37,536 nt of DNA, from assembly GCF_027706725.1 (NCBI RefSeq), contig NZ_JAQFWQ010000071.1, positions 1 through 37,536 of the forward strand. Direction: 5' to 3'. Origin of the DNA: Nocardiopsis endophytica (GTDB taxonomy: Bacteria > Actinomycetota > Actinomycetes > Streptosporangiales > Streptosporangiaceae). Below the pieces are notes generated by a model. That model was given only the letters and a program-made list of their open reading frames with translations, was not told where the DNA came from and made no database searches. Below, piece by piece: positions 18,336 to 37,197 of the stretch. Numbering within the stretch: position 1 is the first letter of the stretch; each line of letters begins with the position of its first letter. The position numbers and the translations under genes are program-made.

Positions 18336-18422
18336 GGAGGATTCGCCTAGAGGCCTAGGGCGCCGCACTGCTAATGCGGTTGGGGGGCAACCCCCTCATG
18401 GGTTCAAATCCCATATCCTCCG
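18336..18422 (+). tRNA. tRNA-Ser (anticodon GCT)
   Basis: An 87-base type II tRNA. The acceptor stem GGAGGAT pairs with ATCCTCC (18415-18421) and G is the discriminator. The anticodon stem CCGCA/TGCGG encloses CTGCTAA, giving anticodon GCT for AGC/AGU serine codons. The long variable arm (ttggggggcaaccccctc) and the T arm ATGGG-TTCAAAT-CCCAT confirm the serine class. CCA is not encoded. Confidence 0.97.
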
Positions 18423-18429
18423 CAGGTCA

Positions 18430-18470
18430 GACGGGGTCTCACACAGAGTGTGAGACCCCGTCTTCGTTTC
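18430..18470 (+). terminator. tRNA-Ser terminator
   Basis: A perfect 15-bp stem GACGGGGTCTCACAC / GTGTGAGACCCCGTC with an AGA loop, followed by TTCGTTTC, eight bases after the tRNA. Confidence 0.9.
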
Positions 18471-18563
18471 AGGGCCGCAGTTCCGGTCGCATTCGCTCCC
18501 GTCCGGCACGGGAGGTCCGCCCGGCTCGGCGGTGCCGCCGAGCCGGGCCGGCCCCGGCGGCGG

Positions 18564-21017: not shown

Positions 21018-21093
21018 GGGGTGGGGGGCCTTCCGGAAAGTCAGTGCGGGAATCCCGCCCGAACGGCGGCGCCGCCGGGCGGGGCGCCCCACG

Positions 21094-22068
21094 CTAATGG
21101 CGCCCGCCGACATCGGGAACGGTGCGCTCCACCTCGACGCACGGCAGGCCCGCCGCGTCGGCGAGGGAGAGGACCCGGTGCAGGTGGTGCACCCCGGGCT
21201 CCAGGTCGACGGCCACTTCGGCGGCGAGTGCCGTCACGCCCGCCGTCCCCCGCGACTGGCCCCGTCCGGTGGCGAGCACCGAGCCGTGGGCGGCCTGCGC
21301 CAGCAGGGTCCACGCGTCGGATCCGGGCAGGTGCAGCCCGGCCGGGATGCGGGGGCGGATCGCGGCGGGCAGGCGGGTGAGGGCGGCCAGGGCCCCGGTC
21401 GCGGCCCGCGAGTCCAGGCCGAACCAGGTGCGAACCGGCACACCGAGGTCACGGCTGAGCGTGTGCTGGTCGGAGAAGTCCGCCCGGTAGAGGCGGCGGC
21501 GCCCCAGGCCGGGGATCCGGAACATGCGCGGGCCGGTGAAGTTGCGGACCGGCGCCCCCGTGACCGGGTCGGGGAAGTCGGCGCCGATCAGGCCCAGCGA
21601 CCACTCCTGGGCCGCCGCGCCGTGCGCGTCCCCGGCGCCGAGCACCACGGCGATGTCGATCGGCGCCGGTGCAAAGGCCGGTCCCGGCGCCGACGCGGCG
21701 AGGTCGGCGGCGAGCAGGTTGGTCAGCCCCGGGACCAGCCCGACGCTGAGCAGGACGGGGGCCTGCGGGTCGAGCCGTTCGGCCGCCTCGATGTAGGAGG
21801 CGGTGGCGGTGGCGTCGACGAAGGCCGCGCCGTGCCCGGTGGCGGCGGCGATGAGCGCCGGATCCTCGGCGCCGGAGGCGTTGACGACCACGTCGACGCC
21901 GGCCAGCGCCTCCCGGTAGCCGTGCAGGCGGTCCTCGCGCAGGTCGATGCGCACGTCGGCGCGCGCGGCGTCGCGCCCCGCGGCCAGCGCCGTGTGGCCG
22001 TAGGAGCGGAGGAAGCGGACGACGGGGGCGCCCACCGCGCCGTACCCGCCGAGCACCAGTGCCTTCAT
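21094..22068 (-). CDS. saccharopine dehydrogenase-like NAD(P)-binding protein
   Basis: A 324-residue protein with an N-terminal Rossmann fold (MKALVLGGYGAVGAPVVRFL, the GxGxxG glycine motif at residues 8-13), then VVNASGAEDPALIAAATGHGAAFVDATA, typical of the saccharopine dehydrogenase/lysine-ketoglutarate reductase-like group, many of which have unknown substrates. The C-terminal part (about 200-324) includes GLHLPGSDAWTLLAQAAHG and a final beta-rich segment ending near EVERTVPDVGG. GGGAGG precedes the ATG. The gene is driven by a promoter containing two TetR-like operators, so it is probably inducible; the true reaction is unknown. Confidence 0.82.
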   Translation of the reverse strand: MKALVLGGYGAVGAPVVRFLRSYGHTALAAGRDAARADVRIDLREDRLHGYREALAGVDVVVNASGAEDPALIAAATGHGAAFVDATATASYIEAAERLDPQAPVLLSVGLVPGLTNLLAADLAASAPGPAFAPAPIDIAVVLGAGDAHGAAAQEWSLGLIGADFPDPVTGAPVRNFTGPRMFRIPGLGRRRLYRADFSDQHTLSRDLGVPVRTWFGLDSRAATGALAALTRLPAAIRPRIPAGLHLPGSDAWTLLAQAAHGSVLATGRGQSRGTAGVTALAAEVAVDLEPGVHHLHRVLSLADAAGLPCVEVERTVPDVGGRH

Positions 22069-22110
22069 CGCCGCGCCTCCCCGGGCCGCACGCGCGCCTG
22101 CACCGGACAA

Positions 22111-22160
22111 GTATTTGGAGTCATACTCTAGAAATGTATTTAGAGTTGGACTCTAGTCAA
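22111..22160 (-). promoter_or_regulatory. promoter with two direct-repeat operators (TAGAGT-NNN-ACTCTA type)
   Basis: On the minus strand, -35 TTGACT (22160-22155) and -10 TACATT (22138-22133) have a 16-base spacer. Two copies of GTATTT(G/A)GAGTNNNACTCTAG lie at 22111-22131 and 22136-22156 (plus-strand reading), 25 bases apart; the cores are near-perfect palindromes TAGAGT-TGG-ACTCTA and TGGAGT-CAT-ACTCTA. One copy fills the promoter spacer and the other covers the start-site region, the layout expected for repression by a TetR-type regulator. No such gene lies in this window. Confidence 0.75.
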
Positions 22161-22263
22161 GGCCCGGCGCCCCTCCGGGGCGACGGGGCGCGCACGCCGC
22201 GGGCATCGGTCGAACCCCCATGCACCCCTGACTCCCCTGACTCCCCTGACGGACCGACCGGAT

Positions 22264-22311
22264 GCAAACGGGTTGCGGCGTTTGCGGTAGCGTTGCACGC
22301 ATGACGCAACG
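22264..22311 (+). promoter_or_regulatory. two inverted repeats over the LacI gene start: likely autoregulatory operators
   Basis: GCAAACG-N8-CGTTTGC (22264-22285) and CGTTGC-N9-GCAACG (22291-22311) lie side by side; the second spans the ATG. A -10-like TAGCGT (22288-22293) is seven bases before the ATG and there is no Shine-Dalgarno, so the mRNA may be leaderless. The sites fit self-repression by the LacI-family protein encoded here. Confidence 0.55.
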
Positions 22312-23320
22312 ACTCGCACAGGTGGCGCAGAAGGTGGGCGTCTCCAAGGCCACGGTCAGCCGGGTGCTGAACGGCAAGCCCGGGGTCTCGGAGGACACGC
22401 GGCAGGCGGTGCTCACGGCCCTGGACGTGCTGGGGTACGAGCGCCCCACGCAGCTGCGCGGGGAGCGCGGCAAGCTGGTCGGCCTGGTGCTGCCGGAGCT
22501 GTCGAACCCCATCTTCCCCGCCTTCGCCGAGGTCGTCGGCGGGGCGCTGGCCCAGCGCGGGCTGACCCCGGTGCTGTGCTCGCAGACCCCGGGCGGCATC
22601 CAGGAGACCGACTACATCGACCTGCTCCTGCAGCAGCAGGTCTCCGGGGTGGTGTTCGCCGGCGGACTGTACGCCCAGGCGGACGCGCCGCACGGGCACT
22701 ACCGCCTGCTGCACGAGCGCGGCCTGCCGGTGGTCCTGGTCAACGCGCCCATCCCCGGGCTCGACTTCCCCTGCGTCTCCACCGACGACGCGATCGCGGT
22801 GGAACAGGCCTGGCGGCACCTGCGCGCCCTCGGGCACGAGCGGATCGGGCTGGCGCTGGGCCCCTCCGACCACGTCCCCTCGCGGCGCAAGCTGGAGGCC
22901 GGGCGGGCGGCGGCCGCGGCGGTCGGCGGCGCGCTGCCCGAGGAGCTGGTCGCCCGCGGGCTGTACTCGATGGAGGGCGGCCAGGCGGCCGCGTCCCGCC
23001 TGCTCGACGCGGGGGCGACCGGCATCGTGTGCGCCAGCGACATCATCGCCCTGGGCGCGGTGCGGGCCGCCCGGCGCCGGGGGCTGTCGGTGCCCGAGGA
23101 CGTGTCGGTCGTCGGCTACGACGACTCCCCCCTGATGACGGCCACCGATCCCGCGCTCACCACGGTCCGCCAGCCCATCGACGCCATGGGGCGCACCGCC
23201 GTCCAGCTGCTCACCGCCCAGATGGAGGGCAAGGAGGTGCTGCGCGACGAGGTCCTGTTCGATCCGGAGCTGGTCGTCCGGTCCTCCACCGGCCCCGCCC
23301 CGCGCGCCGCCGGGGCCTGA
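22301..23320 (+). CDS. LacI-family transcriptional regulator of the glucan locus
   Basis: A 339-residue protein with an N-terminal LacI HTH plus hinge (RLAQVAQKVGVSKATVSRVLNGKPGVSEDTRQAVLTALDVLGY) and a periplasmic-binding-like sugar sensor (KLVGLVLPELSNPIFPAFAEVVGGAL; HERIGLALGP; CASDIIALGAVRAARRRGLSVPEDVSVVGYDDSPL; LTTVRQPIDAMG). It precedes the binding protein, permease and glycosidase genes in the same orientation but is separated by a strong terminator, so it is probably transcribed on its own. Likely a repressor relieved by an oligosaccharide from alpha-glucan; the ligand is inferred. Confidence 0.9.
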   Translation: MTQRLAQVAQKVGVSKATVSRVLNGKPGVSEDTRQAVLTALDVLGYERPTQLRGERGKLVGLVLPELSNPIFPAFAEVVGGALAQRGLTPVLCSQTPGGIQETDYIDLLLQQQVSGVVFAGGLYAQADAPHGHYRLLHERGLPVVLVNAPIPGLDFPCVSTDDAIAVEQAWRHLRALGHERIGLALGPSDHVPSRRKLEAGRAAAAAVGGALPEELVARGLYSMEGGQAAASRLLDAGATGIVCASDIIALGAVRAARRRGLSVPEDVSVVGYDDSPLMTATDPALTTVRQPIDAMGRTAVQLLTAQMEGKEVLRDEVLFDPELVVRSSTGPAPRAAGA

Positions 23321-23354
23321 CCGGAACCCGCGGTCGGAAGGACCGGAAACCGCG

Positions 23355-23395
23355 GCACAGAGCCCCGCGCCCGCCCCGGGCGCGGGGCTCTGTGC
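23355..23395 (+). terminator. terminator of the LacI-family gene
   Basis: A perfect 18-bp stem GCACAGAGCCCCGCGCCC / GGGCGCGGGGCTCTGTGC with a five-base loop, ending before the promoter of the transporter genes. Confidence 0.9.
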
Positions 23396-23475
23396 TGGGG
23401 TTTCACGGATGCCCGGGAGGGCGCGTCCCCGACATGCGTACGGCTATCGATTTTTTGCGGATACAAGTCGAAGTG

Positions 23476-23515
23476 TTGCGCTCATATGTACACGGTGGTT
23501 AAGTGTGTGCCACAC
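23476..23515 (+). promoter_or_regulatory. promoter and palindromic site before the sugar-binding protein gene
   Basis: TTGCGC (23476-23481) and TTAAGT (23499-23504) with a 17-base spacer predict a start near 23511. GTGTG-TGC-CACAC (23503-23515) is a 13-base palindrome overlapping the -10 and start region, a candidate operator. It differs from the two inverted repeats at the LacI gene, so the regulator that binds it is uncertain. Confidence 0.45.
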
Positions 23516-23554
23516 CACTCCATCCCCCCACCCCGACCAGAAGGGGGTCCACCG

Positions 23555-24922
23555 ATGCCATCCGCAACCGGACGCGCCCTCGCGGGCACCGCCTCGGCCG
23601 CGTGCGCGCTCACCCTGCTCTCCGCCTGCGGCACCAGCGCCGACGGCGGTGACACGACGTCGGACGGGAAGGTGCGGCTCGACGTCAACGGGCGGCCGCC
23701 CACCACCCAGGCCTTCGAGCGCGAGCTCTTCGACGAGCACGTGCAGCGCTTCGAGGAGGCCAACCCGGACATCGACATCGTTCCGCACGAGGGCTTCATG
23801 GACCCCCAGACCTTCAGCGCCAAGCTCGCCGGGGGAAAGCTGGAGGACGTCTTCTACGTGTACTTCACCGACGCCCGGTCGCTGATCGAGCGCGGGCAGG
23901 CGGCCGACATCACCGACGCCGTCCAGGACATGCCGCACCGCGAGGACGTCCAGGACGGGCTGATGGAGGTCTTCCAGGACGCGGACGGCCGCCAGTTCGG
24001 CCTGCCCACCGCGAACTACTCGATGGGCCTGCTCTACAACCGCGAGCTGTTCGAGGAGGCCGGGCTCGACCCCGACGACCCCCCTGCGACCTGGGAGGAG
24101 GTCCGCGAGGCCGCCGACGCCGTCTCCGGGCTCGGCGAGGGCACCGTCGGATACGCCGACTTCTCCAAGGGCAACCAGGGCGGCTGGCACTTCACCGCGG
24201 AGCTGTACTCGCGGGGCGGCCGGATCGCCGAGGAGGCCGACGGCGGCTGGAAGGCCGCCTTCAACACCGACGATGGGCGGGACGTCCTCCAGACCCTGCA
24301 CGACATGCGCTTCGAGGACGGCTCGATGGGCGGACGGCAGCTCCTCGAGGCCGAGGACGCCCAGCGCATGATGGGCGCGGGCGAGCTGGGCATGTACATC
24401 GCCGCCGCGGACAACATCAGCACCATCGCCAAGCAGTTCGGCGGGCGGTACGAGGACTACGGCCTTGCGCCGATGCCGGGTGAGGGCGCCACCCTCCTCG
24501 GCGGCGAGGGCTACATGGTCAACCCCGGGGCCACCCCGGAGCAGGTCGAGGCCGGGGTCCGGTGGATCCAGTGGAAGTACCTCAACCCCGAGACCATCGA
24601 ACGCGACGTCGTCGCCCACGTGGAGAACGACCTGCCGGTCGGGCTGCCGATGCCGCCCACCCCCGACATCTGGAAGGGCGGGGTCCGGGAGCGGATCGAG
24701 GGCGTCAAGGAGGCCAACGCCAACGTCCCCATGGACAACTACGCCGGCTACATGGAGGCCGCGCCGGAGATGGAGGGCGTGATCGAGCCGCCGCAGGCCC
24801 AGGAGGTCTACGCGGTGCTCGACTCGGTGATGCAGGCCGTGCTCACCGACGAGGACGCCGACATCGACCGCCTCCTCGACGACGCCGAGGAGAAGGTCGA
24901 CGGCGTCTACAGCGGTTCGTGA
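23555..24922 (+). CDS. ABC transporter sugar-binding lipoprotein
   Basis: A 455-residue extracellular solute-binding protein of the MalE/family 1 type. The lipobox LLSAC has Cys25, so it is anchored outside the membrane. Typical blocks are FEEANPDIDIVPHEGFMDPQTFSAKLAGGKLEDVFYVYF, GLPTANYSMGLLYNRELFEEAGLDPDDPPATWEEVREAADAV and GEGYMVNPGATPEQ. It starts at ATG 23555 with AAGGGGG upstream. Its stop overlaps the next permease start (TGATG). It probably binds oligosaccharides released from alpha-1,3-glucan; substrate inferred from the neighbours. Confidence 0.93.
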   Translation: MPSATGRALAGTASAACALTLLSACGTSADGGDTTSDGKVRLDVNGRPPTTQAFERELFDEHVQRFEEANPDIDIVPHEGFMDPQTFSAKLAGGKLEDVFYVYFTDARSLIERGQAADITDAVQDMPHREDVQDGLMEVFQDADGRQFGLPTANYSMGLLYNRELFEEAGLDPDDPPATWEEVREAADAVSGLGEGTVGYADFSKGNQGGWHFTAELYSRGGRIAEEADGGWKAAFNTDDGRDVLQTLHDMRFEDGSMGGRQLLEAEDAQRMMGAGELGMYIAAADNISTIAKQFGGRYEDYGLAPMPGEGATLLGGEGYMVNPGATPEQVEAGVRWIQWKYLNPETIERDVVAHVENDLPVGLPMPPTPDIWKGGVRERIEGVKEANANVPMDNYAGYMEAAPEMEGVIEPPQAQEVYAVLDSVMQAVLTDEDADIDRLLDDAEEKVDGVYSGS

Positions 24923-25869
24923 TGGGCGCCCCCGTGACGGCGCCCGCGCCGCCCGCCCCCGCTCCCCCGCCGGCCGCCCGGCCCCGCAGGCGCGCCGCAC
25001 GGCGCCGGGCCCTGGCCGACACCGCCACCGCCTACGCCTTCCTCGCCGCCGCCCTGGTGGTCTTCGCGCTCTTCTCCTGGTGGCCCATCCTGCGCAGCGC
25101 GGTCCTGGGATTCCAGGAGGTCGACTTCGCCTCCGGGAGCACCTGGGTGGGCCTGGCCAACTTCGAGCGCCTGCTGGCCGACCCCCTGTTCTTCACCGCC
25201 TGGCGGAACACCGGCCTGTTCACCCTGTACGCCCTGGTGCTCGGCTTCGCCGTGCCCTTCCTGACGGCCGTGCTGCTCAACGAGTTCCGGCACGCCAAGG
25301 CCTACTTCCGCACCCTGGTCTACCTGCCGGTGATGCTGCCGCCCGTGGTGGTGGCCCTGATGTGGAAGTGGTTCTACGACCCCGGCCCCGGCCTGATCAA
25401 CGAGGCCCTGCGCACCCTGCACCTGCCCACCTCCGCCTGGCTGGACTCCTCCTCCACCGCCCTGGTGTCCCTGGTGATCGTGGCGACCTGGGCCAACATG
25501 GGCACCACGACGCTGATCTACCTGGCCGCCCTGCAGACGGTGCCCGGGGAGCTGTACGAGGCCGCGGAGCTGGACGGGGCGAACCTGTGGCAGCGGCTGC
25601 GCCACGTGACCGTGCCGCAGACCCGGTTCGTGCTGCTGGTCCTGCTGCTGCTGCAGATCGTCGCGACGATGCAGGTGTTCACCGAGCCCTACGTGATGAC
25701 CGGCGGCGGGCCGCAGGACTCCACGGTCACCGTGATGTTCCTGGTCTACCGGTACGCCTTCGTCTACAACGACTTCGGCGCCGCCAGCGCGATGAGCCTG
25801 CTCCTGCTGATCGTCCTCGCCGTCTTCTCCGCCCTGTACCTGCGGGCCACCCGCGGCTCCGAGGAGTGA
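24922..25869 (+). CDS. sugar ABC transporter permease (MalF-type)
   Basis: A 315-residue membrane protein with a basic Pro/Ala/Arg N-terminus and about six transmembrane helices. The cytoplasmic EAA loop ELYEAAELDGANLWQRLRHVTVPQ contacts the ATPase. NTGLFTLYALVLGFAVPFLTAVLLN and FTEPYVMTGGGPQDSTVTVMFLVYRYAF are standard for MalF/UgpA-like permeases. The ATG at 24922 overlaps the stop of the binding-protein gene, and the stop is two bases before the second permease. No ATPase gene follows, so a shared MsiK-type ATPase encoded elsewhere is expected. Confidence 0.93.
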   Translation: MGAPVTAPAPPAPAPPPAARPRRRAARRRALADTATAYAFLAAALVVFALFSWWPILRSAVLGFQEVDFASGSTWVGLANFERLLADPLFFTAWRNTGLFTLYALVLGFAVPFLTAVLLNEFRHAKAYFRTLVYLPVMLPPVVVALMWKWFYDPGPGLINEALRTLHLPTSAWLDSSSTALVSLVIVATWANMGTTTLIYLAALQTVPGELYEAAELDGANLWQRLRHVTVPQTRFVLLVLLLLQIVATMQVFTEPYVMTGGGPQDSTVTVMFLVYRYAFVYNDFGAASAMSLLLLIVLAVFSALYLRATRGSEE

Positions 25870-25871
25870 CC

Positions 25872-26753
25872 ATGCCCGCCTCCGCACGCACGCTCGTCCG
25901 CCCCGCCGTCCTGAGGACCCGCCGGGGACGGCTCGTCTACTGGTCCGTGCTGGCCGTGTCGCTGGCGCTGTTCACCGCGGCCTTCATCGTCCCGCTGTAC
26001 TGGGCGGCGACCGGAGCCGTGAAGGCGCCGGACGAGCTGGCCCGCACCCCGCCGACCTACGTGCCGCAGGAGTGGCACCCGGAGAACTACGCCCGGGCGT
26101 GGCGGGAGATGGACCTGGGCCGCTACTTCCTCAACACGGTCGTGCTGGCCGGAGGGGCCTGGCTGGTCCAGCTCGCGGTGCAGGTCCCGGCCGCCTACGC
26201 GCTGTCCAAGCTGCGCCCCCGGTTCGGCCGCGTGGTGCTCGCCCTGATGCTGGTGACCCTGATGATGCCGGTCACGGCGCTGCTGGTGCCGGTCTACCTC
26301 ACCGTGGTGGACGTCCCGCTGTTCAACCGGAACCTGATCAACAGCCCCAGCGCCGTCTGGCTGCCCGCCGCCGCCAACGCCTTCAACATCTACATCCTGA
26401 AGAACTTCTTCGACCGGATCCCCGACGACCTGCTCGACGCCGCCCGGATGGACGGCGCGGGCGCGCTGACCACCCTGGCGCGCGTCGTGCTCCCGCTCTC
26501 CCGGCCGATCCTCGCCGTGGTGTCCATCCTGTCCATCGTCACGGCGTGGAAGGACTTCCTCTGGCCGCTGCTGGTGATCCCCGACCCGGCGCGGCAGCCG
26601 CTGAGCGTGTTCCTCCAGCGGGTCGCCCCGGACACCCCGCTCAACATCCTCATGGCCGGGCTCGTCCTGGCCTCGCTGCCCCTGATCGCGCTGTTCCTGG
26701 TCTTCCAGCGCCAGATCGTCGGCGGCCTGACCGCGGGCGGCCTCAAGGGCTGA
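25872..26753 (+). CDS. sugar ABC transporter permease (MalG-type)
   Basis: A 293-residue membrane protein with six predicted helices, the partner of the preceding permease. The EAA loop is [49 protein letters not shown] and the C-terminal [23 protein letters not shown] are the standard MalG/CarB-like ends. GAGGAG within the upstream coding end serves as ribosome site. A 101-base GC-rich gap without clear terminator leads to the alpha-glucosidase gene. Confidence 0.93.
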
Positions 26754-26854
26754 CCCCCCGGCGCCCCGTACCCCGGGCCCACGACCCCGCCTCCCACGTC
26801 CCGCATCCCGCTCGGACCCGCGAACCCGCGTCCCGCGAGAAAGGACCCTGCCCC

Positions 26855-28423
26855 GTGTCCCGTCAGTCCCGCACGGATTGGTGGCGCGACGCCGCCATCT
26901 ACCAGGTGTACGTCCGCTCCTTCGCCGACGGCGACGGCGACGGCACCGGCGACCTGGCCGGCGTCCGGTCCCGGCTGCCCTACCTGGCCGACCTGGGCGT
27001 GGACGCGCTGTGGTTCACGCCCTGGTACCGCTCGCCGCTGGCCGACGGCGGCTACGACGTCACCGACTACCGCTCCGTCGACCCGGCGTTCGGCACCCTC
27101 GGCGAGGCCGAGAAGCTCATCGCCGAGGCCGGTGAGCTGGGGCTGCGCTGCATCGTGGACATCGTCCCCAACCACGTGTCCGACCGGCACCCCTGGTTCC
27201 GCGCGGCCCTGGAGGCCGGGCCCGGGTCCCCGGAGCGGGAGCGGTTCCACTTCCGCCCGGCCTCGCCCGAGCCCCCCAACGACTGGGTGGGCGAGTTCGG
27301 CGGCGTGCCGTGGTCGCGCACCGCGGACGGCGAGTGGTACCTCCACCTGTTCACGCCCCACCAGCCCGACCTCAACTGGAACCACCCCGACGTGCGCCGC
27401 GAGCACGAGGAGGTGCTGCGGTTCTGGTTCGAGCGCGGCGCGGCCGGGGTGCGCATCGACTCGGCCGCGCTGCTCGCCAAGGCCGGGGGCCTGCCGCCGA
27501 TGGCCGCCTCCCCGGACCACCCCTTCCACGACCGGCCCGAGCTGCACGGGATCTACCGGTCCTGGCGCCGGATCGCCGACGCCTACGGGGCGGTGCTGAT
27601 CGGCGAGGTGTGGCTGCCCGACGCCGAGCGGCTGGCCCGCTACCTGCGCCCGGACGAGCTGCACACCGCCTTCAACTTCGACTTCCTGGGCCGCCCCTGG
27701 GACGCGGCCGAGCTGTGGGAGTCGATCGAGCGGACCCTGGCCGCGCACGAGCCGGTCGGCGCCCCCGCCACCTGGGTGCTGGCCAACCACGACGTGACCC
27801 GCACGGTCACCCGGTACGGACGGGCCGGGGACACCGGGTTCGCGTTCGAGCGCAAACGCTTCGGCGTCCCCACCGACCTGGCGCTGGGCACCCGGCGGGC
27901 GCGCGCCGCCGCGCTGCTCACCCTGGCCCTTCCCGGGTCGGTCTACCTGTACCAGGGAGAGGAGCTGGGGCTCCCGGAGGCGGAGATCCCCCGCGAGCTG
28001 ATCCGGGACCCGATGCACGCCCGCTCCGGCGGCCGGGACCCGGGCCGGGACGGCTGCCGGGTCCCGCTGCCCTGGGACGGCGCCCCGGAGCCGAGCTGGC
28101 TGCCGGTCCCCGAGGGGTGGGCCGGCTACGCGGCCGAGCGGCAGGCCCAGGACCCCGGGTCGATGCTGTCCCTGTACCGCGCGGCGCTGCGCCTGCGGCG
28201 CTCCTTCGGCGACGCGGGGCCGCTGGTCCGGCTGCGCCCGGAGGACCCGCGGGTGCTCTGCTTCGCGCGCACCGGGCGGGACGGCGCCGCCTGGATCTGC
28301 CTGGTCAACTTCGGCCCGGACGACGTGGCGCCCCCCGCTCACACCGAGACCCTGCTGGCCAGCGGCCCCCTGACCCCGGGCGGGCTGGTGCCGCAGGACA
28401 CGGCGGTCTGGCTGCGCGCCTGA
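26855..28423 (+). CDS. GH13 alpha-glucosidase, intracellular
   Basis: A 522-residue GH13 glycoside hydrolase starting at GTG with AAGGA ten bases upstream. The catalytic triad is visible: nucleophile D202 ([10 protein letters not shown]), acid/base E251 (IGEVWLP) and D313 (ANHDVTR). [11 protein letters not shown] (region I) and the [10 protein letters not shown] segment place it with oligo-1,6-/alpha-glucosidase-type members that act on short alpha-glucosides. No signal peptide, so it should act in the cytoplasm on sugars imported by the adjacent ABC system, releasing glucose. Linkage preference is not determined by these motifs; alpha-1,3 (nigerose) activity is suggested by the flanking GH87 genes. 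Confidence 0.93.
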
Positions 28424-28475
28424 GCGCCCGCGGCCCGGCCCTTCCTTCACCCCGCACCCCCACGGAAGGAACGCC

Positions 28476-30299
28476 ATGCGCACGAGACCGGCCGCGGCCC
28501 TGACCGCGGCCCTGGCCACATCCCTGCTGACGACCGGGGCGGCCGCGGTGCCGGCCGACACGACCGGCACGGCCGGCACCGCCGGCGGAGGGGCCGCGGA
28601 CACGTCCGCGGCGCCGATCGCCACCGGCGCCGACATGCCCTACACCACCGTCGAGGCCGAGGACGCCTCCCCCGGCGGCGGGGCGCAGGTGGTCGGCCCC
28701 AACCGGGAGATCGGCGACCCGGCGGGCGAGGCGTCCGGCCGCCGGGCCGTCACGCTCACCGAGACCGGGCAGTACGTGGAGTTCACCGCCCCGGTCGACA
28801 CGAACACGCTCGTCACCCGCTTCTCCATCCCCGACGGGGAGGAGGCCACCCTCAGCGTCCATGTGGACGGAGAGAAGGCCGGGGCCTTCGAGCTGACCTC
28901 GGAGTACGCCTGGCTGTACGGCCCCGAGGAGGCGCCGGTGAACGACCCGGGGGCGGGACCGCCCCGGCACATCTACGACGAGGCGAACCTGGTGCTGGAG
29001 GAGACCGTCCCGGCCGGCTCCACGATCCGGCTGCAGAAGGACGCGGAGGACACCTCCGAGTACGCCGTCGACTTCGTCGACTTCGAGGAGGCCGTGGCCG
29101 CCCCGAACCCGGACCCGGACGCGTTCGTGGAGCCCGAGGGCACCACCCACCAGGACGTGCAGGCCGCCCTGGACACTGCGCGGATGGACGGCTCCGTCGA
29201 GGGGGTGTACCTGCCGCCGGGCGACTACGAGACCGGGAGCAAGTTCCAGGTGTACGGCGCCCCGGTCAAGGTGGTCGGCGCCGGGCCGTGGTTCACCCGC
29301 TTCCACGCCCCGGCCGGCCAGGAGAACACCGACATCGGCTTCCGCGCCGACCAGGGCGCGAACGGCTCGGAGTTCTCCGGCTTCGCCTACTTCGGGAACT
29401 ACACCTCGCGCATCGACGGTCCGGGCAAGGTCTTCGACCTGCAGAACGTCTCCGGCATGACCATCGAGGACATCTGGGTCGAGCACATGGTGTGCTTCTT
29501 CTGGGGCGCGAACACCGACGACATGACCATCCGCGGCAACCGGATCCGCAACACCTTCGCCGACGGCCTGAACATGACCAACGGCTCCAGCGGCAACCTG
29601 GTGGCCGACAACGAGGCGCGGGCGACCGGCGACGACTCCTTCGCGCTGTTCGCCGCCCAGGACGCCGGCGGCGGCGAGCAGAGCGGCAACGTCTACGAGA
29701 ACCTCACCTCCAAGCTCACCTGGAGGGCCGCGGGGCTGGCGGTCTACGGCGGGCAGGACAACACCTTCCGCAACGTCCACGTCGCCGACACCCTCGTCTA
29801 CTCCGGGGTGACCGTCTCCTCGCTGGACTTCGGGTACCCGATGAGCGGCTTCGGGCCCGGGGAGACCTCCCTGCAGGACCTGACCATCGAACGCGCGGGC
29901 GGCCACTTCTGGGGCGGGCAGACCTTCCCGGGGATCTGGATGTTCTCCGCCTCCGAGCCGTTCCGCAACATCCGCGTCGACAACGCCGAGATCATCGACC
30001 CCACCTACCACGGGGTCATGTTCCAGACGAACTACGTGGGGGGTCGGCCCGACTACGTGGGGGGTCGGCCCGAGCACCCGGTCGAGGACACGGTGCTGTC
30101 GAACATCACCGTCTCGGGCGCGCAGAAGTCCGGCGACGAGTTCGACGACAGGTCCGGCTTCGGGATCTGGGCCAACGAGATGCCCGAGGAGGGCCAGGGG
30201 CCTGCGGTCGGCCGGGCCGTCTTCCGGAACCTCACCCTGACCGGCAACGCCGAGGACATCAGGAACACCACCGACACCTTCGAGATCGCCGTCGAATGA
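28476..30299 (+). CDS. secreted GH87 alpha-1,3-glucanase / mycodextranase (first copy)
   Basis: A 607-residue secreted enzyme. A Sec signal peptide (residues 1-24) and a Thr/Gly/Ala linker are followed by a beta-sandwich, CBM35-like carbohydrate module (about 52-195: [39 protein letters not shown]), then a right-handed beta-helix. The GH87 catalytic aspartates are D363 (ADGLN) and D386-D387 (TGDDS), with the same 23 and 1 spacing as the characterised Paenibacillus/Bacillus alpha-1,3-glucanases. GH87 enzymes cut alpha-1,3-glucan or mixed alpha-1,3/1,4 nigeran. GGAAGG precedes. A perfect 21-bp duplication near the C-terminus adds seven residues (DYVGGRP). Confidence 0.85.
30031..30072 (+). repeat. 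21-bp perfect tandem duplication inside the first GH87 gene
   Basis: The 21 bases at 30031-30051 are repeated exactly at 30052-30072, in frame, so NYVGGRP is followed by DYVGGRP. Perfect identity suggests recent slippage. Confidence 0.95.
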
Positions 30300-30380
30300 C
30301 CCCCGCCGCCCGGCGCGCGGGGCCGTGCGCCGGGCGGCCGTCCGCACCCCATGGAACACCCGCATCCCCTGGAGGACACC

Positions 30381-32291
30381 ATGAAGCGGAAACGATCCCG
30401 TCGCGCCCTGGTACTGGGCGCCACCCTCGCAACGGCCGGGCTCCTGCCGGTCTCCGCCCCCGCGCAGGCGGCCCCCGCCCCCGCCTCCGCGGACACCGGC
30501 ACCGGCACCGGCACCGGCGGGAACGCCGCGGAACGCGGCGCCGACGTCCCGTACGTGTCGTACGAGGCCGAGGACGGCACCTACTCAGGGACGCTCCTGG
30601 AGGCCGAACCCGACCGCCCGTTCGGCCGGACGAATTTCGCCACCGAGTCGTCCGGCCGCGCCTCCGTGCGGCTCGACTCCGCGGGCGACCACGTGGAGTT
30701 CACCTCCACCGCCCCGACCAACTCCATCGTGGTGCGCAACTCGATCCCGGACGCGCCCGAGGGCGGCGGCCGGGAGGAGCCGCTGAGCCTGTACGCCGAC
30801 GGGGAGTTCGTGCAGGAGCTGACGCTGTCCTCCAAGCACAGCTGGCTGTACGGGAACACCGACGACCCCGAGGGCCTGACCAACACCCCGGGGGGCGACG
30901 CGCGGCGGCTCTTCGACGAGTCCCACGCCCTGCTGGACCGGACCTACCCCGAGGGGACGGAGTTCCGGCTGCAGCGCGAGGACGGCTTCGGCGCCGAGTA
31001 CGCCGTCGTCGACCTGATCGACCTGGAGGAGGTGGCGCCCCCGGCGGACAAGCCCCCGGAGTGCACCTCGATCACCGAGTACGGGGCGGTCCCCGACGAC
31101 GGCGAGGACGACACCGCGGCGCTGCAGGAGGCGGTGACGGCCGACCAGGAGGGGGAGATCGACTGCGTCTGGATCCCTGAGGGCCGGTGGCGCCAGGAGC
31201 GGAAGATCCTCACCGACGACCCGCAGGACCGCGGGCAGTACAACCAGGTCGGCATCAGGGACGTGACCGTGCGCGGCGCGGGCATGTGGCACTCGCAGCT
31301 GTACACCCTCACCCCGCCGCACGAGGCCGACGGCATCAACCACCCGCACGAGGGCAACTTCGGCTTCGACATCGACGACAACACGCAGATCTCCGACATC
31401 GCGATCTTCGGGTCGGGCACCATCCGGGGCGGCGACGGCGGCCACGAGGGCGGCGTCGCCCTCAACGGCCGGTTCGGGCAGGGCACCCGGATCTCGGACG
31501 TGTGGATCGAGCACGCCAACGTCGGGGCGTGGGTCGGCCGGGACCACTCCAACATCCCGGAACTGTGGAACCCGGGGGACGGTGTGGAGTTCAGCGGCAT
31601 GCGGATCCGCAACACCTACGCGGACGGCGTGAACTTCGCCAACGGGACCCGCAACTCGACGGTGACCGACTCGTCGCTGCGCACGACCGGCGACGACGCC
31701 CTGGCCGTGTGGTCCAGCAAGTACGTCGAGGACCCCGCGGTGGACGTGGGCCGCGACAACGCGTTCACGAACAACACCGTCCAGCTGCCCTGGAGGGCCA
31801 ACGGCATCGCGGTCTATGGAGGCAGCGGGAACACGATCGAGAACAACCTGGTCTCCGACACCATGACCTACCCCGGGATCATGCTCGCCAGCGACCACGA
31901 CCCGGTGCCGTTCTCCGGCACGACCCTCATCGCGAACAACGGCCTGTACCGCACCGGCGGCGCGTTCTGGGGCGGGCAGCAGGAGTTCGGCGCCATCACG
32001 GTGTTCCCCGCCAACACCGACATCCCCGGGGTCGTCATCCGGGACACCGACATCCACGACTCGACCTACGACGGGATCCAGTTCAAGTCGGGCGGCGGCG
32101 CGGCGCCCGGCGTCGAGGTCTCGAACGTGACGATCACCGACTCCAACAACGGCGCGGGCATCCTCGCCCAGGGCGGTGCCCGGGGCAGCGCGACCCTGTC
32201 GAACGTGGAGATCTCCGGATCGGCCGACGGCGACGTCGTGGTCGAACCGGGCTCCCAGTTCACCATCGACGAGGGCGGCTCCCCGTCCTAG
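30381..32291 (+). CDS. secreted GH87 alpha-1,3-glucanase / mycodextranase (second copy)
   Basis: A 636-residue secreted paralogue of the preceding enzyme. The signal peptide (KRKRSRRALVLGATLATAGL, cleavage after AQA) is followed by a Thr-Gly linker, a CBM35-like module (about 68-230: PYVSYEAEDGTYSG; SGRASVRLDSAGDHVEFTST; SWLYGN) and a beta-helix beginning at SITEYGAVPDDGEDDTAALQ. The GH87 aspartates are D415 (ADGVN) and D438-D439 (TGDDA), again with 23 and 1 spacing. GGAGG precedes. Similar to but clearly diverged from the first copy, suggesting different product size or linkage preference. A terminator follows. Confidence 0.85.
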   Translation: MKRKRSRRALVLGATLATAGLLPVSAPAQAAPAPASADTGTGTGTGGNAAERGADVPYVSYEAEDGTYSGTLLEAEPDRPFGRTNFATESSGRASVRLDSAGDHVEFTSTAPTNSIVVRNSIPDAPEGGGREEPLSLYADGEFVQELTLSSKHSWLYGNTDDPEGLTNTPGGDARRLFDESHALLDRTYPEGTEFRLQREDGFGAEYAVVDLIDLEEVAPPADKPPECTSITEYGAVPDDGEDDTAALQEAVTADQEGEIDCVWIPEGRWRQERKILTDDPQDRGQYNQVGIRDVTVRGAGMWHSQLYTLTPPHEADGINHPHEGNFGFDIDDNTQISDIAIFGSGTIRGGDGGHEGGVALNGRFGQGTRISDVWIEHANVGAWVGRDHSNIPELWNPGDGVEFSGMRIRNTYADGVNFANGTRNSTVTDSSLRTTGDDALAVWSSKYVEDPAVDVGRDNAFTNNTVQLPWRANGIAVYGGSGNTIENNLVSDTMTYPGIMLASDHDPVPFSGTTLIANNGLYRTGGAFWGGQQEFGAITVFPANTDIPGVVIRDTDIHDSTYDGIQFKSGGGAAPGVEVSNVTITDSNNGAGILAQGGARGSATLSNVEISGSADGDVVVEPGSQFTIDEGGSPS

Positions 32292-32301
32292 GGACAGGTG
32301 T

Positions 32302-32329
32302 GGCCGCGCCCCGGGGACGGGGCGCGGCC
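32302..32329 (+). terminator. terminator of the glucan locus
   Basis: An 11-bp stem GGCCGCGCCCC / GGGGCGCGGCC with a six-base loop, 11 bases after the second GH87 stop. Confidence 0.75.
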
Positions 32330-32345
32330 CCGCGGCCGGGGCGGC

Positions 32346-32351
32346 GACAAT
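32346..32351 (+). promoter_or_regulatory. -10 element of the PadR gene (leaderless)
   Basis: GACAAT ends six bases before the ATG at 32358 and there is no Shine-Dalgarno, so transcription probably starts at the start codon. Confidence 0.45.
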
Positions 32352-32357
32352 GGGCGC

Positions 32358-32972
32358 ATGAGCCTCCGTAACGCCCTCTTGGCCCTGCTCACCGCGCGCC
32401 CGTTGACGGCCTACGACATCTCCAAGCAGTTCGGCGCGTCGGTGGGGTACGTCTGGTTCGCCCCGGATTCACAGATCTATCCGCAGCTCCGGCGCATGGA
32501 GGAGGAGGGACTGGTCGAGGCGACCGAGCTGCCGTCCGAGGGGAGGCGGACCAAGCGCGAGTACCGGATCACCGACGAGGGCGTCCGCGCGTTCCGCGAG
32601 TGGATCAACGCGCCCGCGTCCCACCAGCGGGAGCGCAGCGTGCACCACCTCCGCGCGGCGTACCTCGAATGGGCCGAGACCGATGAGGCGCGCAGGAACA
32701 TGGAGCGGCACATCGCGTTCTACCGGGAGCAGCTCGCGCAGTGGGAGGCGCAGCGGGCCGCGCTGCTCGACCGGTCCAGCCCGACCCTGGCCGCCCGGCT
32801 CGCCGGGTCGCCGCCCGAGCAGCACGAGCGGATCGTCGCGTTCAAGGTCTTCACCTACGACGGGCTGATCGAGCGCGCCCGCTCCGAGATCGCGTGGGCG
32901 GAGCGCGGGCTGGAGCTGATCGAGGAGATGGCCGCGGAGCCGACGCCCGCGCCGGTGCACGCGCGCGCGTGA
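32358..32972 (+). CDS. PadR-family regulator, probable VanR
   Basis: A 204-residue protein with an N-terminal winged HTH (NALLALLTARPLTAYDISKQF; QIYPQLRRMEEEGLVEATEL; REYRITDEGVRAFREWI) and a C-terminal helical dimerisation domain, the full-length PadR-s1/VanR layout. It is convergent with vanA-vanB, whose promoter carries a palindrome resembling the site of the PadR-type VanR of Corynebacterium glutamicum. It probably represses vanAB and is released by vanillate; this is inferred from context. Confidence 0.88.
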   Translation: MSLRNALLALLTARPLTAYDISKQFGASVGYVWFAPDSQIYPQLRRMEEEGLVEATELPSEGRRTKREYRITDEGVRAFREWINAPASHQRERSVHHLRAAYLEWAETDEARRNMERHIAFYREQLAQWEAQRAALLDRSSPTLAARLAGSPPEQHERIVAFKVFTYDGLIERARSEIAWAERGLELIEEMAAEPTPAPVHARA

Positions 32973-33013
32973 CGGCTCCGCCCGGCCTCCTCGGACTCCT
33001 GCGCGGTGTCGCG

Positions 33014-34039
33014 TCAGGGGATGTCGATGGTCAGGAGCGCCCTCCTCCCCTCCACACCGGAGGGGCCGGGAGCACCGTCCGGCCGGGGGGCGCACACGGC
33101 GCGGGACACGCAGGCGCACATCTTGGGCGAGGTCCGCTTCTCCTCGTCGCTGAAGAAGACGTCGCGGTGGTCGATGAGGCCCTGGACGTCGAGGACGCGC
33201 ACCTGGCACAGGCCGCACTCGCCCTTCCTGCAGTCCGAGATGACCTCGGCTCCGGCCTGCTCCAGCGCCTCCAGCATCGAGCGCCCGCCGCCGACGACGG
33301 TCCGCACGCCGAGCCGGGGGATCTCGACCTCGAACTCCTCGGGGTCGTACCAGCCGCTGTTGCCGAACGTCTCGTAGCGCAGGTCCGCGGCGGGAAGGCC
33401 CCGGTCGTGCCACCGCCGCCGGACGGCGTCCATGAGGCGGATCGGTCCGCACATGTACAGCTCGGCGGGCCCCGCTCCGGCGACCCCGTCGACCAGCGCG
33501 GAGGCGTCCAGCGGCGTCCCCTCGTCGTCGACGTGCACCCGGATGCGGTCTCCGTGCCGCTCGACGAGCTCCTCCAGGTAGGCCATCCGGTCGCGCCCTC
33601 GGCCGACGTACACCAGGACGTAGTCCGCCTTGAGCCGCCGCAGGACGTCGGCCATCGCGGCGATGGCGGTGATGCCGATCCCGCCCGCCACCAGCACGTA
33701 GCGCGGCGCGCCGATGCGGAGAGGGAAGTTCTGCAGCGGCTGCGTCATCCGCAGGCCGTCCCCCGGCCGGAGCGTGTGCATGAACCTCGACCCGCCGCGC
33801 GAGTCGGCGGCGAGCTGGACGCTGATCGTGAGGAGGCCGCCGTCCTCACTCCCGCGGACCACCGAGTAGGAGCGGGTGTCCGTCCGCCCGTCGATCTCGA
33901 CGGCGACGTCGACGTGCGCGCCGGGCGCCGCCGGCCGGGGCCGCTCGGGGCGCAGCACGATCCGCTGGATGCCGTCCGCGGCCGGCGCCGCTTCGACGAC
34001 CTCGCCGTCCTGCCAGTCCGCCTGGGTGTCCACCGCCAT
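33014..34039 (-). CDS. vanB: vanillate O-demethylase reductase subunit (VanB-type)
   Basis: A 341-residue class IA-type phthalate dioxygenase-reductase family protein passing electrons from NAD(P)H to the Rieske oxygenase. In order: FMN/flavin domain (RSYSVVRG; ADSRGGSRFMH), NAD(P)-binding domain (YVLVAGGIGITAIAAM; YVGRGRDRM; ELYMCGP), and a C-terminal plant-type [2Fe-2S] domain with cysteines 270, 275, 278 and 308 (C-x4-C-x2-C-x29-C). It starts one base after the vanA stop, so the two are translated together. Could serve another aromatic methyl ether oxygenase, but VanA next door supports the call. Confidence 0.9.
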   Translation of the reverse strand: MAVDTQADWQDGEVVEAAPAADGIQRIVLRPERPRPAAPGAHVDVAVEIDGRTDTRSYSVVRGSEDGGLLTISVQLAADSRGGSRFMHTLRPGDGLRMTQPLQNFPLRIGAPRYVLVAGGIGITAIAAMADVLRRLKADYVLVYVGRGRDRMAYLEELVERHGDRIRVHVDDEGTPLDASALVDGVAGAGPAELYMCGPIRLMDAVRRRWHDRGLPAADLRYETFGNSGWYDPEEFEVEIPRLGVRTVVGGGRSMLEALEQAGAEVISDCRKGECGLCQVRVLDVQGLIDHRDVFFSDEEKRTSPKMCACVSRAVCAPRPDGAPGPSGVEGRRALLTIDIP

Positions 34040-34040
34040 G

Positions 34041-35150
34041 TCAGCGCACCCCCGCGCCCGCGCCGGCCGCGGCCCGCTCGGCTTCGAGCATGCGCTCGAT
34101 GAGCCGCCGCACCCACATGCCCCCGGCGTCGATGTTGAGGCTGTAGAACTCGTGGGCCGGGTTGGCGTCGATGGCGGCCTGCTGCGCGATGAGCATCTCC
34201 TCGTCCTCGGCGAACACGCGCCGGACGCCCTCGCGGAGCTGGGTGGTGATGAGCTGGCTGTCGAGGCGGTAGTTCCGCATGAAGGCCCAGAAGTAGTGGG
34301 CCGAGCGGGAGGTCTCGGGGGTGATGGTGTTCATGACGTACCCGTTGACGCCCTGGCTCCGGTCGCCCTCCGGCGCGCCGGTCCCGGCCTTGGCCACGCC
34401 GACGTCGATGCAGATGGTCGAGGGGGTCTCGAAGCGGATGATCTGCCAGCGGTCCACCTTGCCCTCGAACCCGGGGAACCTGTCGCGCATGTTCTTCAGC
34501 CAGAAGGGCGGCGGGTCGATGCCGAGCATCCAGCGGGTGACGGTGACCGTGCGCTCGTCGTGGGAGACCTCGAAGTCCGACTCGCTGAGCTCGGCCTGCC
34601 CGATGCTGCCGGCGTGGACGAACTCCTCGTGGGTGAGGTCCATCAGGTTGTCCAGGACCAGCATGTAGTTGGCGCCGACGTCGATGGTGCCGCCGTCGCC
34701 GGCCCAGTGGGGCGGGTCCATCTGGCGCATGTCCGGCACGGTGTCGGGGTCGGCGAGGGTGGGGTCGCCGAGCCAGACCCACACGAACCGGTGCCGTTCG
34801 ACCACCGGGAACGAGGGGACCATGGCGCTGGGGTTGATCGTCTTCTGCGCCGGCATGAAGGTGCACCGGCCCGCGGAGTTGTAGCGCAGGCCGTGGTAGG
34901 GGCACTGCACCTCGTCGGATCCGACCCGCTTGCCCATGGACAGCGGGGCGAGGCGGTGCCAGCAGGCGTCGGCCAGCGCGACGGGGCGGCCCTCGTCGGT
35001 GCGGTAGAGCACGAGGGGCCGGTCGGCGACGGTGCGCGAGAAGAGCCCCTTCCCGGTGACCTCGTGGTCCCACGCGGCGGCGTACCACGCGTTCAGGGGG
35101 TGGCCGGGCGCCTTGTCGGTGGTGGTGGACCTGGTTTCGGCGATCGTCAT
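34041..35150 (-). CDS. vanA: vanillate O-demethylase oxygenase subunit
   Basis: A 369-residue Rieske non-haem iron oxygenase. The Rieske centre is C63-W-H65 and C83-x2-H86 (CPYH); the mononuclear iron ligands sit in DNLMDLTHEEFVHA (H174, H179). NAWYAAAWD near the start, PPFWLKNM, and SLNIDAGGMWVRRLIERMLEAE near the end match VanA closely. It demethylates vanillate to protocatechuate with release of formaldehyde, in the cytosol with VanB. GGAGGTAACC precedes the ATG. Expression is probably controlled by two operators upstream. No vanillate transporter lies in the window. Confidence 0.93.
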   Translation of the reverse strand: MTIAETRSTTTDKAPGHPLNAWYAAAWDHEVTGKGLFSRTVADRPLVLYRTDEGRPVALADACWHRLAPLSMGKRVGSDEVQCPYHGLRYNSAGRCTFMPAQKTINPSAMVPSFPVVERHRFVWVWLGDPTLADPDTVPDMRQMDPPHWAGDGGTIDVGANYMLVLDNLMDLTHEEFVHAGSIGQAELSESDFEVSHDERTVTVTRWMLGIDPPPFWLKNMRDRFPGFEGKVDRWQIIRFETPSTICIDVGVAKAGTGAPEGDRSQGVNGYVMNTITPETSRSAHYFWAFMRNYRLDSQLITTQLREGVRRVFAEDEEMLIAQQAAIDANPAHEFYSLNIDAGGMWVRRLIERMLEAERAAAGAGAGVR

Positions 35151-35228: not shown

Positions 35229-35339
35229 GCCATGCCCCGGCCACGGCCGGTACGGGGAGGACGGCCCCCTCCGGGCGCATGAAGACTCCCTCATCTGCGT
35301 TTCACCCCGGGGCGGCCCCCGGGGAGGATGATCGGTGAC

Positions 35340-35649
<310 letters not shown>

Positions 35650-35660
<11 letters not shown>

Positions 35661-37197
35661 CCGCACGGCCCCTCTCGACGCCGTGGACACGGGCCCGGAC
35701 CCCCGACCGGAGGAGGGGGCCGGGCCCGCGCCCGAGGCGGACGGGCGGCTGCGCGGCCGCGTCCCCGCGCGCGCCCGCATCACCGCCTGGGTGGTGCTCC
35801 TGATGACCGCCACCCTCGCGATGGTCAACATCGTCACCTGGCAGGCGCTGCGCACCGAGGTCGACGAACGCATCGACCGCGCCCTGTCCCAGGAGATCAA
35901 CGAGTTCCTGGAGGTCGCCCGGGACGGGACCGACCCCGCGACCGGGCAGAGCTTCCCCGACCTGGACGCCCTGTTCCGGGCGCACGTGGGCGGCCAGCAC
36001 CCGGACCGGCACGAGATCATCTTCGGCCACGTCGACGAGACCGCCGGGGCCACCGTGCCCACCGGCCGGGTCCGGCAGGGCCAGAACCCCCTGTTCGACG
36101 CGTCCGCCGACGGGCCGGTGCGCGAGGAGATCCTCGACAGCCCGAACGCCCGCGGCGTCACCGACACCCCCGAAGGACCGCTGCGCTGGGAGAAGGTCCG
36201 GGTGAACCCGCTCGGCGGCGCCACCGGCGCCAACCCCGGGGGCTGGTTCGTCATCGGCTACTTCGCCGACGCCGACATGGCCGGAATCGACCGCACCGCC
36301 CGGACCCTGGTCCTGGTCAGCCTCACCGGCCTGGTCCTGGCCGGCGCCGCCGCCTGGTGGGTGGCGGGGCAGATCCTGGCGCCGATCCGGCTGGTGCGCC
36401 AGACCGCGGCGCAGATCACCGAGGAGGACCTGACCCGGCGCATCGACGTGTCCGGCAAGGACGACGTGGCGGCGCTGGCCGAGCAGTTCAACGGCATGCT
36501 CGACCGCCTGGAGGAGGCCTTCTCCATCCAGCGGCGCTTCGTCGACGACGCCGGGCACGAGCTGCGCACCCCCATCACCATCGTGCGGGGCCACCTGGAG
36601 GTGATGGGCGACGACCCCGAGGAACGGCGCGAGGTGCTCCGTCTGGTCACCGACGAGCTGGACCGCATGGCGCGGATCGTGGAGGACCTGCTACTGCTCG
36701 CCAAGGCGCAGCGGCCGGACTTCCTGCACCCGGTCTCCGTCCCGGTGGAGGAGCTGACCAGCGACATCGACGCCAAGGTGCGCACCCTCGGCGACCGGAA
36801 CTGGCGCCTTGAGGGCATCGGCGAGGGCCCCGTGCGCCTGGACCCGCAGCGGGTCACCCAGGCCATGGTGCAGCTGGCGTCGAACGCGGTGCGGCACACG
36901 GGTCCCGGCGACGAGATCCGCGTGGGGTCGTCGGTCGCCGAGGACGGCCGCACGGTGGAGTTCTGGGTGGGCGACACCGGGCCGGGCATCCCCCTGGAGG
37001 AGCAGGAGCGCATCTTCGACCGGTTCGCCCGCGGGTCCGGTGGCGGCGGCTCCCGGGGCGGCGCCGGCCTGGGACTGGCGATCGTCCGCGCGATCACCGA
37101 CGCCCACCACGGGACCGTCGAGGTCCAGTCGACCCCGGGCGAGGGGGCACGTTTCACCCTGACGTTCCCGACCGACATGCGCAGCACAAAGGCCTGA
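35650..37197 (+). CDS. HAMP-domain sensor histidine kinase
   Basis: A 515-residue membrane kinase. A short cytoplasmic N-terminus leads to TM1 (about 44-64, ITAWVVLLMTATLAMVNIVTW), an extracellular sensor of about 155 residues, TM2 (about 220-242), a HAMP linker (PIRLVRQTAAQITEEDLTRRI), the HisKA H-box with H303 (DDAGHELRTPITIVRGH), the N-box (LASNAVRHT), G1 (GDTGPGIP) and G2 (GGAGLGLAIV). No response regulator is seen; it may lie elsewhere. The gene begins inside the poly-Asp protein gene, suggesting that the two work together. Confidence 0.92.

Follow-up and report, generated by a model that had tools for sequence, protein, structure and literature searches.

Loci that join a LacI-family regulator, an ATP-binding cassette (ABC) sugar importer and intracellular and secreted glycosidases form a class that is already well known, and one that includes an enzyme of glycoside hydrolase family 87 (GH87) lies in Lachnoclostridium phytofermentans, a Firmicute. 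In its nigerose region, the GH65 nigerose phosphorylase Cphy1874 and a GH31 α-1,3-glucosidase occur with a nearby GH87, an ABC transporter and LacI (PMC9061262). A GH87-containing polysaccharide utilisation locus (PUL) is predicted in Prevotella melaninogenica, and the authors of the 2026 paper that describes it say that they know of no GH87-containing locus of this kind that has been characterised by experiment (PMC13421300). Some fungal walls, and dental plaque as well, contain α-1,3-glucan as a structural polymer, and Streptomyces isolates grow on mutan; the available text of the work that reports this names GH87 and uses the word "transporter" zero times (PMC11475409). The present analysis concerns a contig of the soil actinomycete Nocardiopsis endophytica (NZ_JAQFWQ010000071.1, 37,536 nucleotides, hereafter the window), in which two GH87 genes stand in line with genes for a LacI regulator, an importer and a GH13 enzyme. 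As a whole, this locus is explained, with good confidence, as an actinobacterial operon, self-contained and mobile, for the utilisation of α-1,3-glucan.

Like the Lachnoclostridium region, the window locus brings GH87, an ABC importer and LacI together for the same proposed kind of pathway, but the intracellular enzymes differ, being GH65 and GH31 there and GH13 here, with no GH65 or GH31 in the window operon; the available text of PMC9061262 gives no operator or co-occurrence evidence. The Prevotella PUL is likewise built around a GH87 for α-1,3-linked glucan, but it relies on TonB-dependent uptake and carries GH97 and GH99, whereas the window has an ABC importer and no SusC/SusD pair. No described actinobacterial system of GH87, importer and regulator was found in the open-licence literature. 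A first-pass annotation of the window had held that no importer-plus-regulator system was described for this polymer, which stands for actinomycetes within that literature but not for the Lachnoclostridium region as presented in the available text of PMC9061262. Within its class, the locus is set apart by the polymer it would serve, its composition, its mobility and the operator link.

The seven genes run consecutively, head to tail, on the + strand from 22,301 to 32,291, and open reading frames (ORFs) and Pfam domains confirm them as the real, co-oriented set that had been named. The range first assigned to the locus, 23,555-32,291, covers the genes from the sugar-binding lipoprotein (SBP) to the second GH87, but omits the named LacI gene (ORF 22,262-23,320). 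The features are as follows.

22,261-22,279, + strand: predicted operator GATGCAAACGGGTTGCGGC, a pseudo-palindrome YGCAA-N5-TTGCR, with its core at 22,264-22,276 ending 24 bp ahead of the likely lacI start
22,301-23,320, + strand: lacI, a MalR/AcrC-like LacI-family regulator (PF00356, 4e-14; PF13377, 2.5e-37)
23,361-23,389, + strand: strong hairpin in the gap that follows lacI, resembling a terminator or attenuator, without a long T run
23,476-23,504, + strand: TTGCGC-N17-TTAAGT, found by eye, from which the transporter genes may be transcribed (possible promoter)
23,555-24,922, + strand: sugar-binding lipoprotein (SBP), SBP_bac_1 (PF01547, 5.6e-25), with the lipobox LLSAC read by eye
24,919-25,869, + strand: permease 1, short type (PF00528, 5.2e-19)
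25,866-26,753, + strand: permease 2 (PF00528, 2.2e-14)
26,855-28,423, + strand: cytoplasmic GH13 α-glucosidase-like enzyme with RIDSAA at the nucleophile (PF00128, 6.3e-89; PDB 8yif, E 3e-138)
28,476-30,299, + strand: GH87a, a secreted 607-aa member of the α-1,3-glucanase family with no more than the catalytic unit (PF22815/PF22816; 6k0m, E 4e-127)
30,381-32,291, + strand: GH87b, second secreted GH87, 636 aa (PF22815/PF22816; 5zru, E 4e-66)

Coordinates place 4-bp overlaps between the SBP stop and the permease 1 start and between the two permeases, and the remaining genes between SBP and GH87b are spaced by 52-101 bp. The gap between lacI and the SBP gene is wider (234 bp) and holds the hairpin (−39.5 kcal/mol for 23,361-23,420, ViennaRNA), which suggests that separate promoters are possible for lacI and for the transporter genes; the possible-promoter block is partly conserved in an alignment with the sister-species locus L061, whose LacI is 92% identical to that of the window. 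The lacI frame is open from 22,262, with a likely start at 22,301. The GH13 gene starts at about 26,855 (GTG) and its product has no signal peptide by eye, and the signal peptides of the GH87 enzymes were likewise read by eye from the translations. For GH87b, a start at 30,381, where GGAGG precedes the ATG (636 aa), is more likely than one at 30,351 (646 aa). The parts of a CUT1 importer are present in the lipoprotein and two BPD_transp_1 permeases (Pfam), whereas no ATPase gene is encoded within the locus; two UgpC/MsiK-type ATPases above the NCBIfam cut-off lie on another contig, C65. A tRNA-Gly (ACC) called by ARAGORN at 27,031-27,109, inside the GH13 gene, is probably spurious, as the coding frame is conserved there.

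In the proposed mechanism, GH87a and GH87b would be secreted and would cut mutan/pseudonigeran, or the alternating α-1,3/1,4-glucan nigeran, to oligosaccharides, which the lipoprotein and the two permeases would import, powered by an MsiK-type ATPase encoded elsewhere. The cytoplasmic GH13 would hydrolyse the imported oligosaccharides to glucose, and a MalR-type LacI, acting on the operator that precedes lacI, would repress the locus until imported sugar releases it. In this scheme we infer the polymer, the imported sugar, the linkage specificity of GH13, the inducer, the serving ATPase and the single transcription unit.

The assignment of the two secreted enzymes to GH87 is firm. GH87a matches PF22815 (CatAgl_D1) at E 4e-66 and PF22816 (CatAgl_D2) at E 3e-104, and GH87b matches them at E 3e-44 and E 3e-33, all above the curated cut-offs; the source genome has no further PF22816 match, so that both of its GH87 enzymes lie in the operon. 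A D...DD pattern with identical spacing occurs in both (D363, D386 and D387 in GH87a; D425, D448 and D449 in GH87b, in the numbering of the 646-aa form), and a loose version of this Asp triad is present in 48/48 of the GH87 ORFs with a length of 450 aa or more that come from the window and from the SBP-centred loci described below. We take these to be the catalytic residues; a PDB variant in which one of these Asp residues is changed to Ala is among the solved-structure matches. The structures 6k0m, 5zru and 7c7d are presumably Agl-FH1, Agl-KA and Agl-ST, respectively; these enzymes resemble the window's GH87s in catalytic-unit sequence and in the catalytic Asp pattern, and each of them is a remote match for GH87b (E 2e-53 to 4e-66). 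Judged by family membership, both window proteins are predicted to act on α-1,3-glucan or nigeran.

The link between the importer and GH87 is strong across genomes. Two samples were used, 296 genomes over the phylum and 250 of the window's family, with GH87 defined by a PF22816 match, SBP by E up to 1e-60 (phylum sample), and at most six SBP candidates scored per genome. Over the phylum, GH87 and SBP each occur in 9/296 genomes, and these are the identical nine, from three genera and with the source genome included (Fisher 2e-17). Within the family, GH87 is found in 102/250 and SBP in 126/250; SBP is present in 99/102 GH87-positive genomes vs 27/148 GH87-negative ones (odds ratio 148, p 6e-40). 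As a control, another SBP from this genome, also of the SBP_bac_1 type and encoded beside a UgpC-type ATPase gene, occurs in 81/102 vs 89/148 (odds ratio 2.6). The three GH87-positive family genomes without SBP (G032, G089 and G203) are assemblies of 370, 500 and 740 contigs.

The same association appears in gene neighbourhoods. In 80 SBP-centred loci, selected from 140 places counted and mostly 20-kb stretches, a GH87 gene occurs in 41, with the nearest 356-3869 bp from SBP, where chance would place GH87 near SBP in fewer than 1 in 80 (a rough estimate from 1-5 GH87 per 4-14-Mb genome). GH13 is found in 68/80 and LacI in 65/80, the LacI and permease counts being lower bounds since ORFs were picked by GC pattern and overlap. 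On an SBP tree that kept 104/106 SBP rows after a length filter, GH87 linkage is clustered: the 80 SBP-found rows need 10 changes, where 200 shuffles have a mean of 26.6 and a minimum of 20; with the GH87b-found loci included the figures are 12 vs 31.7, a biased comparison, as those loci are GH87-positive by construction. The SBP clade of the window is GH87-linked in 6/6 rows, three of which were found via GH87b. A second set of 80 named loci found via GH87b (Streptomyces, Kitasatospora, Cellulosimicrobium) holds SBP and GH13 in 23/80, and in 18/61 of those of at least 21 kb; three Cellulosimicrobium loci have GH87b alone. The window order SBP-permease 1-permease 2-GH13-GH87a-GH87b recurs in Streptomyces atriruber NRRL B-24165 (L149), Streptomyces sp. 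B-S-A12 (L162) and LHD-70 (L165), with no LacI ahead of SBP within the approximately 2.7 kb examined. The search for co-occurrence of GH87 with the ABC/GH13 set that the first-pass annotation had proposed has thus returned phyletic co-occurrence (9/9; 99/102 vs 27/148), linkage (41/80) and a shared operator.

As a separate observation, loci L104, L106, L108 and L110 carry two LacI genes and two different GH87-type genes, the latter on opposite sides of the genes for the importer, an arrangement that suggests local duplication.

The shared operator is a degenerate inverted repeat. Counts of exact palindromes were uninformative, and the GCAA-N-TTGC form was found afterwards. In the 37.5-kb window, GCAA-N(2-12)-TTGC has a single site, at 22,264-22,276, which scores 18.9 bits with a position weight matrix (PWM) vs 5.2 for the next best site in the window; the L061 operator, at the equivalent place, scores 19.7 bits. 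Across loci, GCAA-N4-7-TTGC occurs upstream of LacI in 46/101, of SBP in 15/103, of GH87a in 7/34 and of GH87b in 11/126, but in 0/240 for the permeases and GH13 and 14/1145 for control genes. L162 and L165, which have no adjacent LacI, carry a 25.8-bit site about 0.3 kb ahead of the SBP match. The operator of AcrC, a MalR-type regulator of Actinoplanes, is given as CTGCAAG-2 bp-CTTGCAG, and the Streptomyces lividans MalR core as CTTGCAG, in the available text of PMC5526262. The AcrC site and the GCAA-N4/5-TTGC motif are of the same class, and the enriched sites match the published core; the window site, TGCAAACGGGTTGCG, follows this CTTGCAG-type inverted repeat more loosely and is predicted as an operator. 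The window LacI, which has a LacI helix-turn-helix and a sugar-binding domain, is probably a MalR-type repressor.

In the whole source genome, GCAA-N4/5-TTGC has 18 sites vs 95 for a reversed control pattern. Two lie on contig C78, in another operon in which LacI is divergent from GH13-SBP-permease (534 aa)-permease: one is 42 bp ahead of the GH13 ORF, between GH13 and LacI, and one is in the first 130 bp of the called SBP ORF, probably ahead of the true start of that gene. A site on contig C96 stands 138 bp ahead of an ORF with α-amylase and CBM20 domains, encoding a secreted α-amylase with starch-binding CBM20, and 145 bp ahead of a divergent Peripla_BP_2 gene. Together the GCAA-N4-TTGC sites at C78 (L239; two) and C96 (L255; one) look like a small MalR-like regulon. 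Apart from those in the window and C78 there are 15 sites, and 10 ORFs near 7 of them were scanned with Pfam; of the 14 that remain without C96, the ORFs scanned near 6 are not α-glucan genes, one being a major facilitator superfamily (MFS)/sugar-type transporter.

The operon is an insertion, missing from one sister species and at another site in a second. In BLASTN against the sister genome G102, the window matches from 22,263 to 32,270 at 84-90%, with no match of the flanks among the matches listed, and by contig coordinates a gene that flanks the operon in the window sits 3.7 Mb away there. The sister genome G008 has neither GH87 nor SBP at the thresholds used, and the window segments 18,367-22,161 and 35,276-37,185 are only about 1.8 kb apart in it, so that the intervening 13-kb block is absent. 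Within the genus, GH87 and SBP occur together in 2/6 genomes. The three Streptomyces copies show 79-86% DNA identity (flanking genes between species of the genus, 83-91%; BLASTN), and on the SBP tree three Streptomyces group with the window and G102 with support 100. Horizontal transfer of the cassette is the likeliest explanation.

Several features lie beside the inserted block. A PadR gene at 32,298, 6 bp downstream of GH87b, was considered as an operon member and rejected, as G008 and G143 have adjoining PadR and Rieske genes at places where there is no such operon; the PadR regulator, a vanillate-demethylase-like Rieske oxygenase and a reductase (window 32,298-35,150) form one unit, found elsewhere in these genomes. 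To the left, a tRNA-Ser (GCT) at 18,336-18,423 stands beside a gene for a tetratricopeptide repeat (TPR) protein, about 3.7 kb from the block's left edge (22,161). The frame of an 848-aa TPR protein is open in the window, and its sister matches have internal stops, TGA and TAG in G008 (L244) and TAG in G102 (L245).

A first alternative to an α-1,3-glucan operon is that LacI, SBP, the permeases and GH13 form an ordinary maltose/maltodextrin operon with GH87 adjacent by chance. The gene kinds are indeed those of malR-malEFG-aglA, a LacI-type repressor of α-glucan genes is shared with the malR-malEFG systems of Streptomyces, the operator class is the same, and LacI and GH13 have paralogues in the C78 operon (362 and 515 bits). 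However, it is the separate C78 operon that better fits the maltose models: its proteins score 207, 331 and 213 bits against NCBIfam MalE, MalF and MalG, under the curated cut-offs, whereas the window permeases score 77 and 89 bits against MalF and MalG and the window SBP has no MalE match among the matches listed. The window cassette was therefore rejected as the genome's maltose operon. The two importers are of different types, with a long MalF in C78 and a short permease 1 in the window, and the nucleophile motif of GH13 is RIDVAH in the C78 enzyme, as in the nearest solved structures 8yif and 8yie, but RIDSAA in the window, with SAA in place of VAH after the nucleophile Asp. The available text of PMC5526262 on maltose systems and AcrC does not mention GH87, of which the window has two. 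Given also the near-constant co-occurrence of the importer with GH87, this explanation is largely refuted and very improbable.

It is possible, though on the unlikely side, that the operon targets nigeran, in which α-1,3 and α-1,4 bonds alternate, and that at least one GH87 is a mycodextranase. Mycodextranases exist within GH87, one being from Streptomyces sp. J-13-3 according to the available text of PMC11475409, and the published GH87 tree, as far as the available text of PMC10696023 describes it, has a mycodextranase cluster from actinomycetes. The solved α-1,3-glucanases are only remote relatives of GH87b, and a GH13 with a MalR-type regulator would suit α-1,4-bonded sugars, but GH87a is close to the α-1,3-glucanase Agl-FH1 (6k0m, E 4e-127). 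Slightly less likely is an importer for α-gluco-oligosaccharides in general, which would serve several polymers and have GH87 as the most frequent of several partners. Such breadth is known from a Paenibacillus α-glucoside-binding protein that takes maltose, trehalose, isomaltose and others, with nigerose confirmed without a determined KD in the available text of PMC13311272, and 27/126 SBP genomes here are without GH87. Furthermore, RIDSAA, present in 79/91 GH13 proteins of the set (7/91 gave no match to the motif pattern), is as common without GH87 (24/30 SBP loci) as with it (31/37), and thus marks the GH13 clade of the importer, not GH87 itself. On the other hand, a domain scan of ten representatives of recurring neighbour families, with rarer families outside the scan, revealed no alternative glycoside hydrolase (a kinase, LacI, helix-turn-helix protein, ABC ATPase, histidine kinase, LeuA, peptidase, RecO and oxidoreductase, and one without match), and the SBP clade of the window is linked to GH87 in every row, half of these rows coming from the GH87b search.

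Several points weigh against a dedicated α-1,3-glucan operon as such. The importer can exist without GH87, since 27/126 SBP-positive family genomes lack a GH87 match and 39/80 SBP loci have none in the examined stretch, only 3 of these 39 having less than 5 kb on one side; GH87 is thus absent beside many orthologous transporters, but 99/126 transporter genomes carry it somewhere. The p-values (2e-17 and 6e-40) are overstated, as the sampled genomes are related, and the source genome counts in both samples. The PWM behind the 18.9 bits derives from 40 distinct sites of the same set, with the window site among them, the upstream counts overlap and are not independent because divergent genes share upstream regions, and a PWM scan found no operator-type site ahead of SBP in L149. 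Of eight SBP-neighbouring GH87 relatives scanned, 8/8 have both CatAgl domains, 6/8 also F5/8 type C (discoidin) and 1/8 carbohydrate-binding module (CBM) domains, whereas the domain scan found neither discoidin nor CBM domains in the window's two GH87s or the two of the sister species; lacking these, GH87a and GH87b may be poor on insoluble polymer. The locus had been called complete, which holds for its seven genes but not for the ATPase, which would have to come from elsewhere, or for the discoidin/CBM domains of 7/8 scanned relatives. GH13 α-glucosidases are known chiefly for α-1,4 and α-1,6 bonds, and α-1,3 activity of the window GH13 is assumed. The function of the locus is read from sequence. 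Nevertheless, the GH87 families, the co-occurrence, the linkage and the common operator support the α-1,3-glucan or nigeran reading that was first proposed, with the substrate still a deduction.

A wider view can be put forward tentatively, and is somewhat less probable than its negation: that this is a shared actinobacterial α-1,3-glucan system, a 10-kb cassette moving between Streptomyces and distant genera, in which the RIDSAA GH13 would be a new class of nigero-oligosaccharide hydrolase and the MalR-type regulator would wire the cassette into the starch/maltose operator code, giving one code for α-glucan feeding. For experiments the cassette offers a ready gene set together with a binding protein and an operator, and it would account for the use of fungal walls and mutan as food by actinomycetes.

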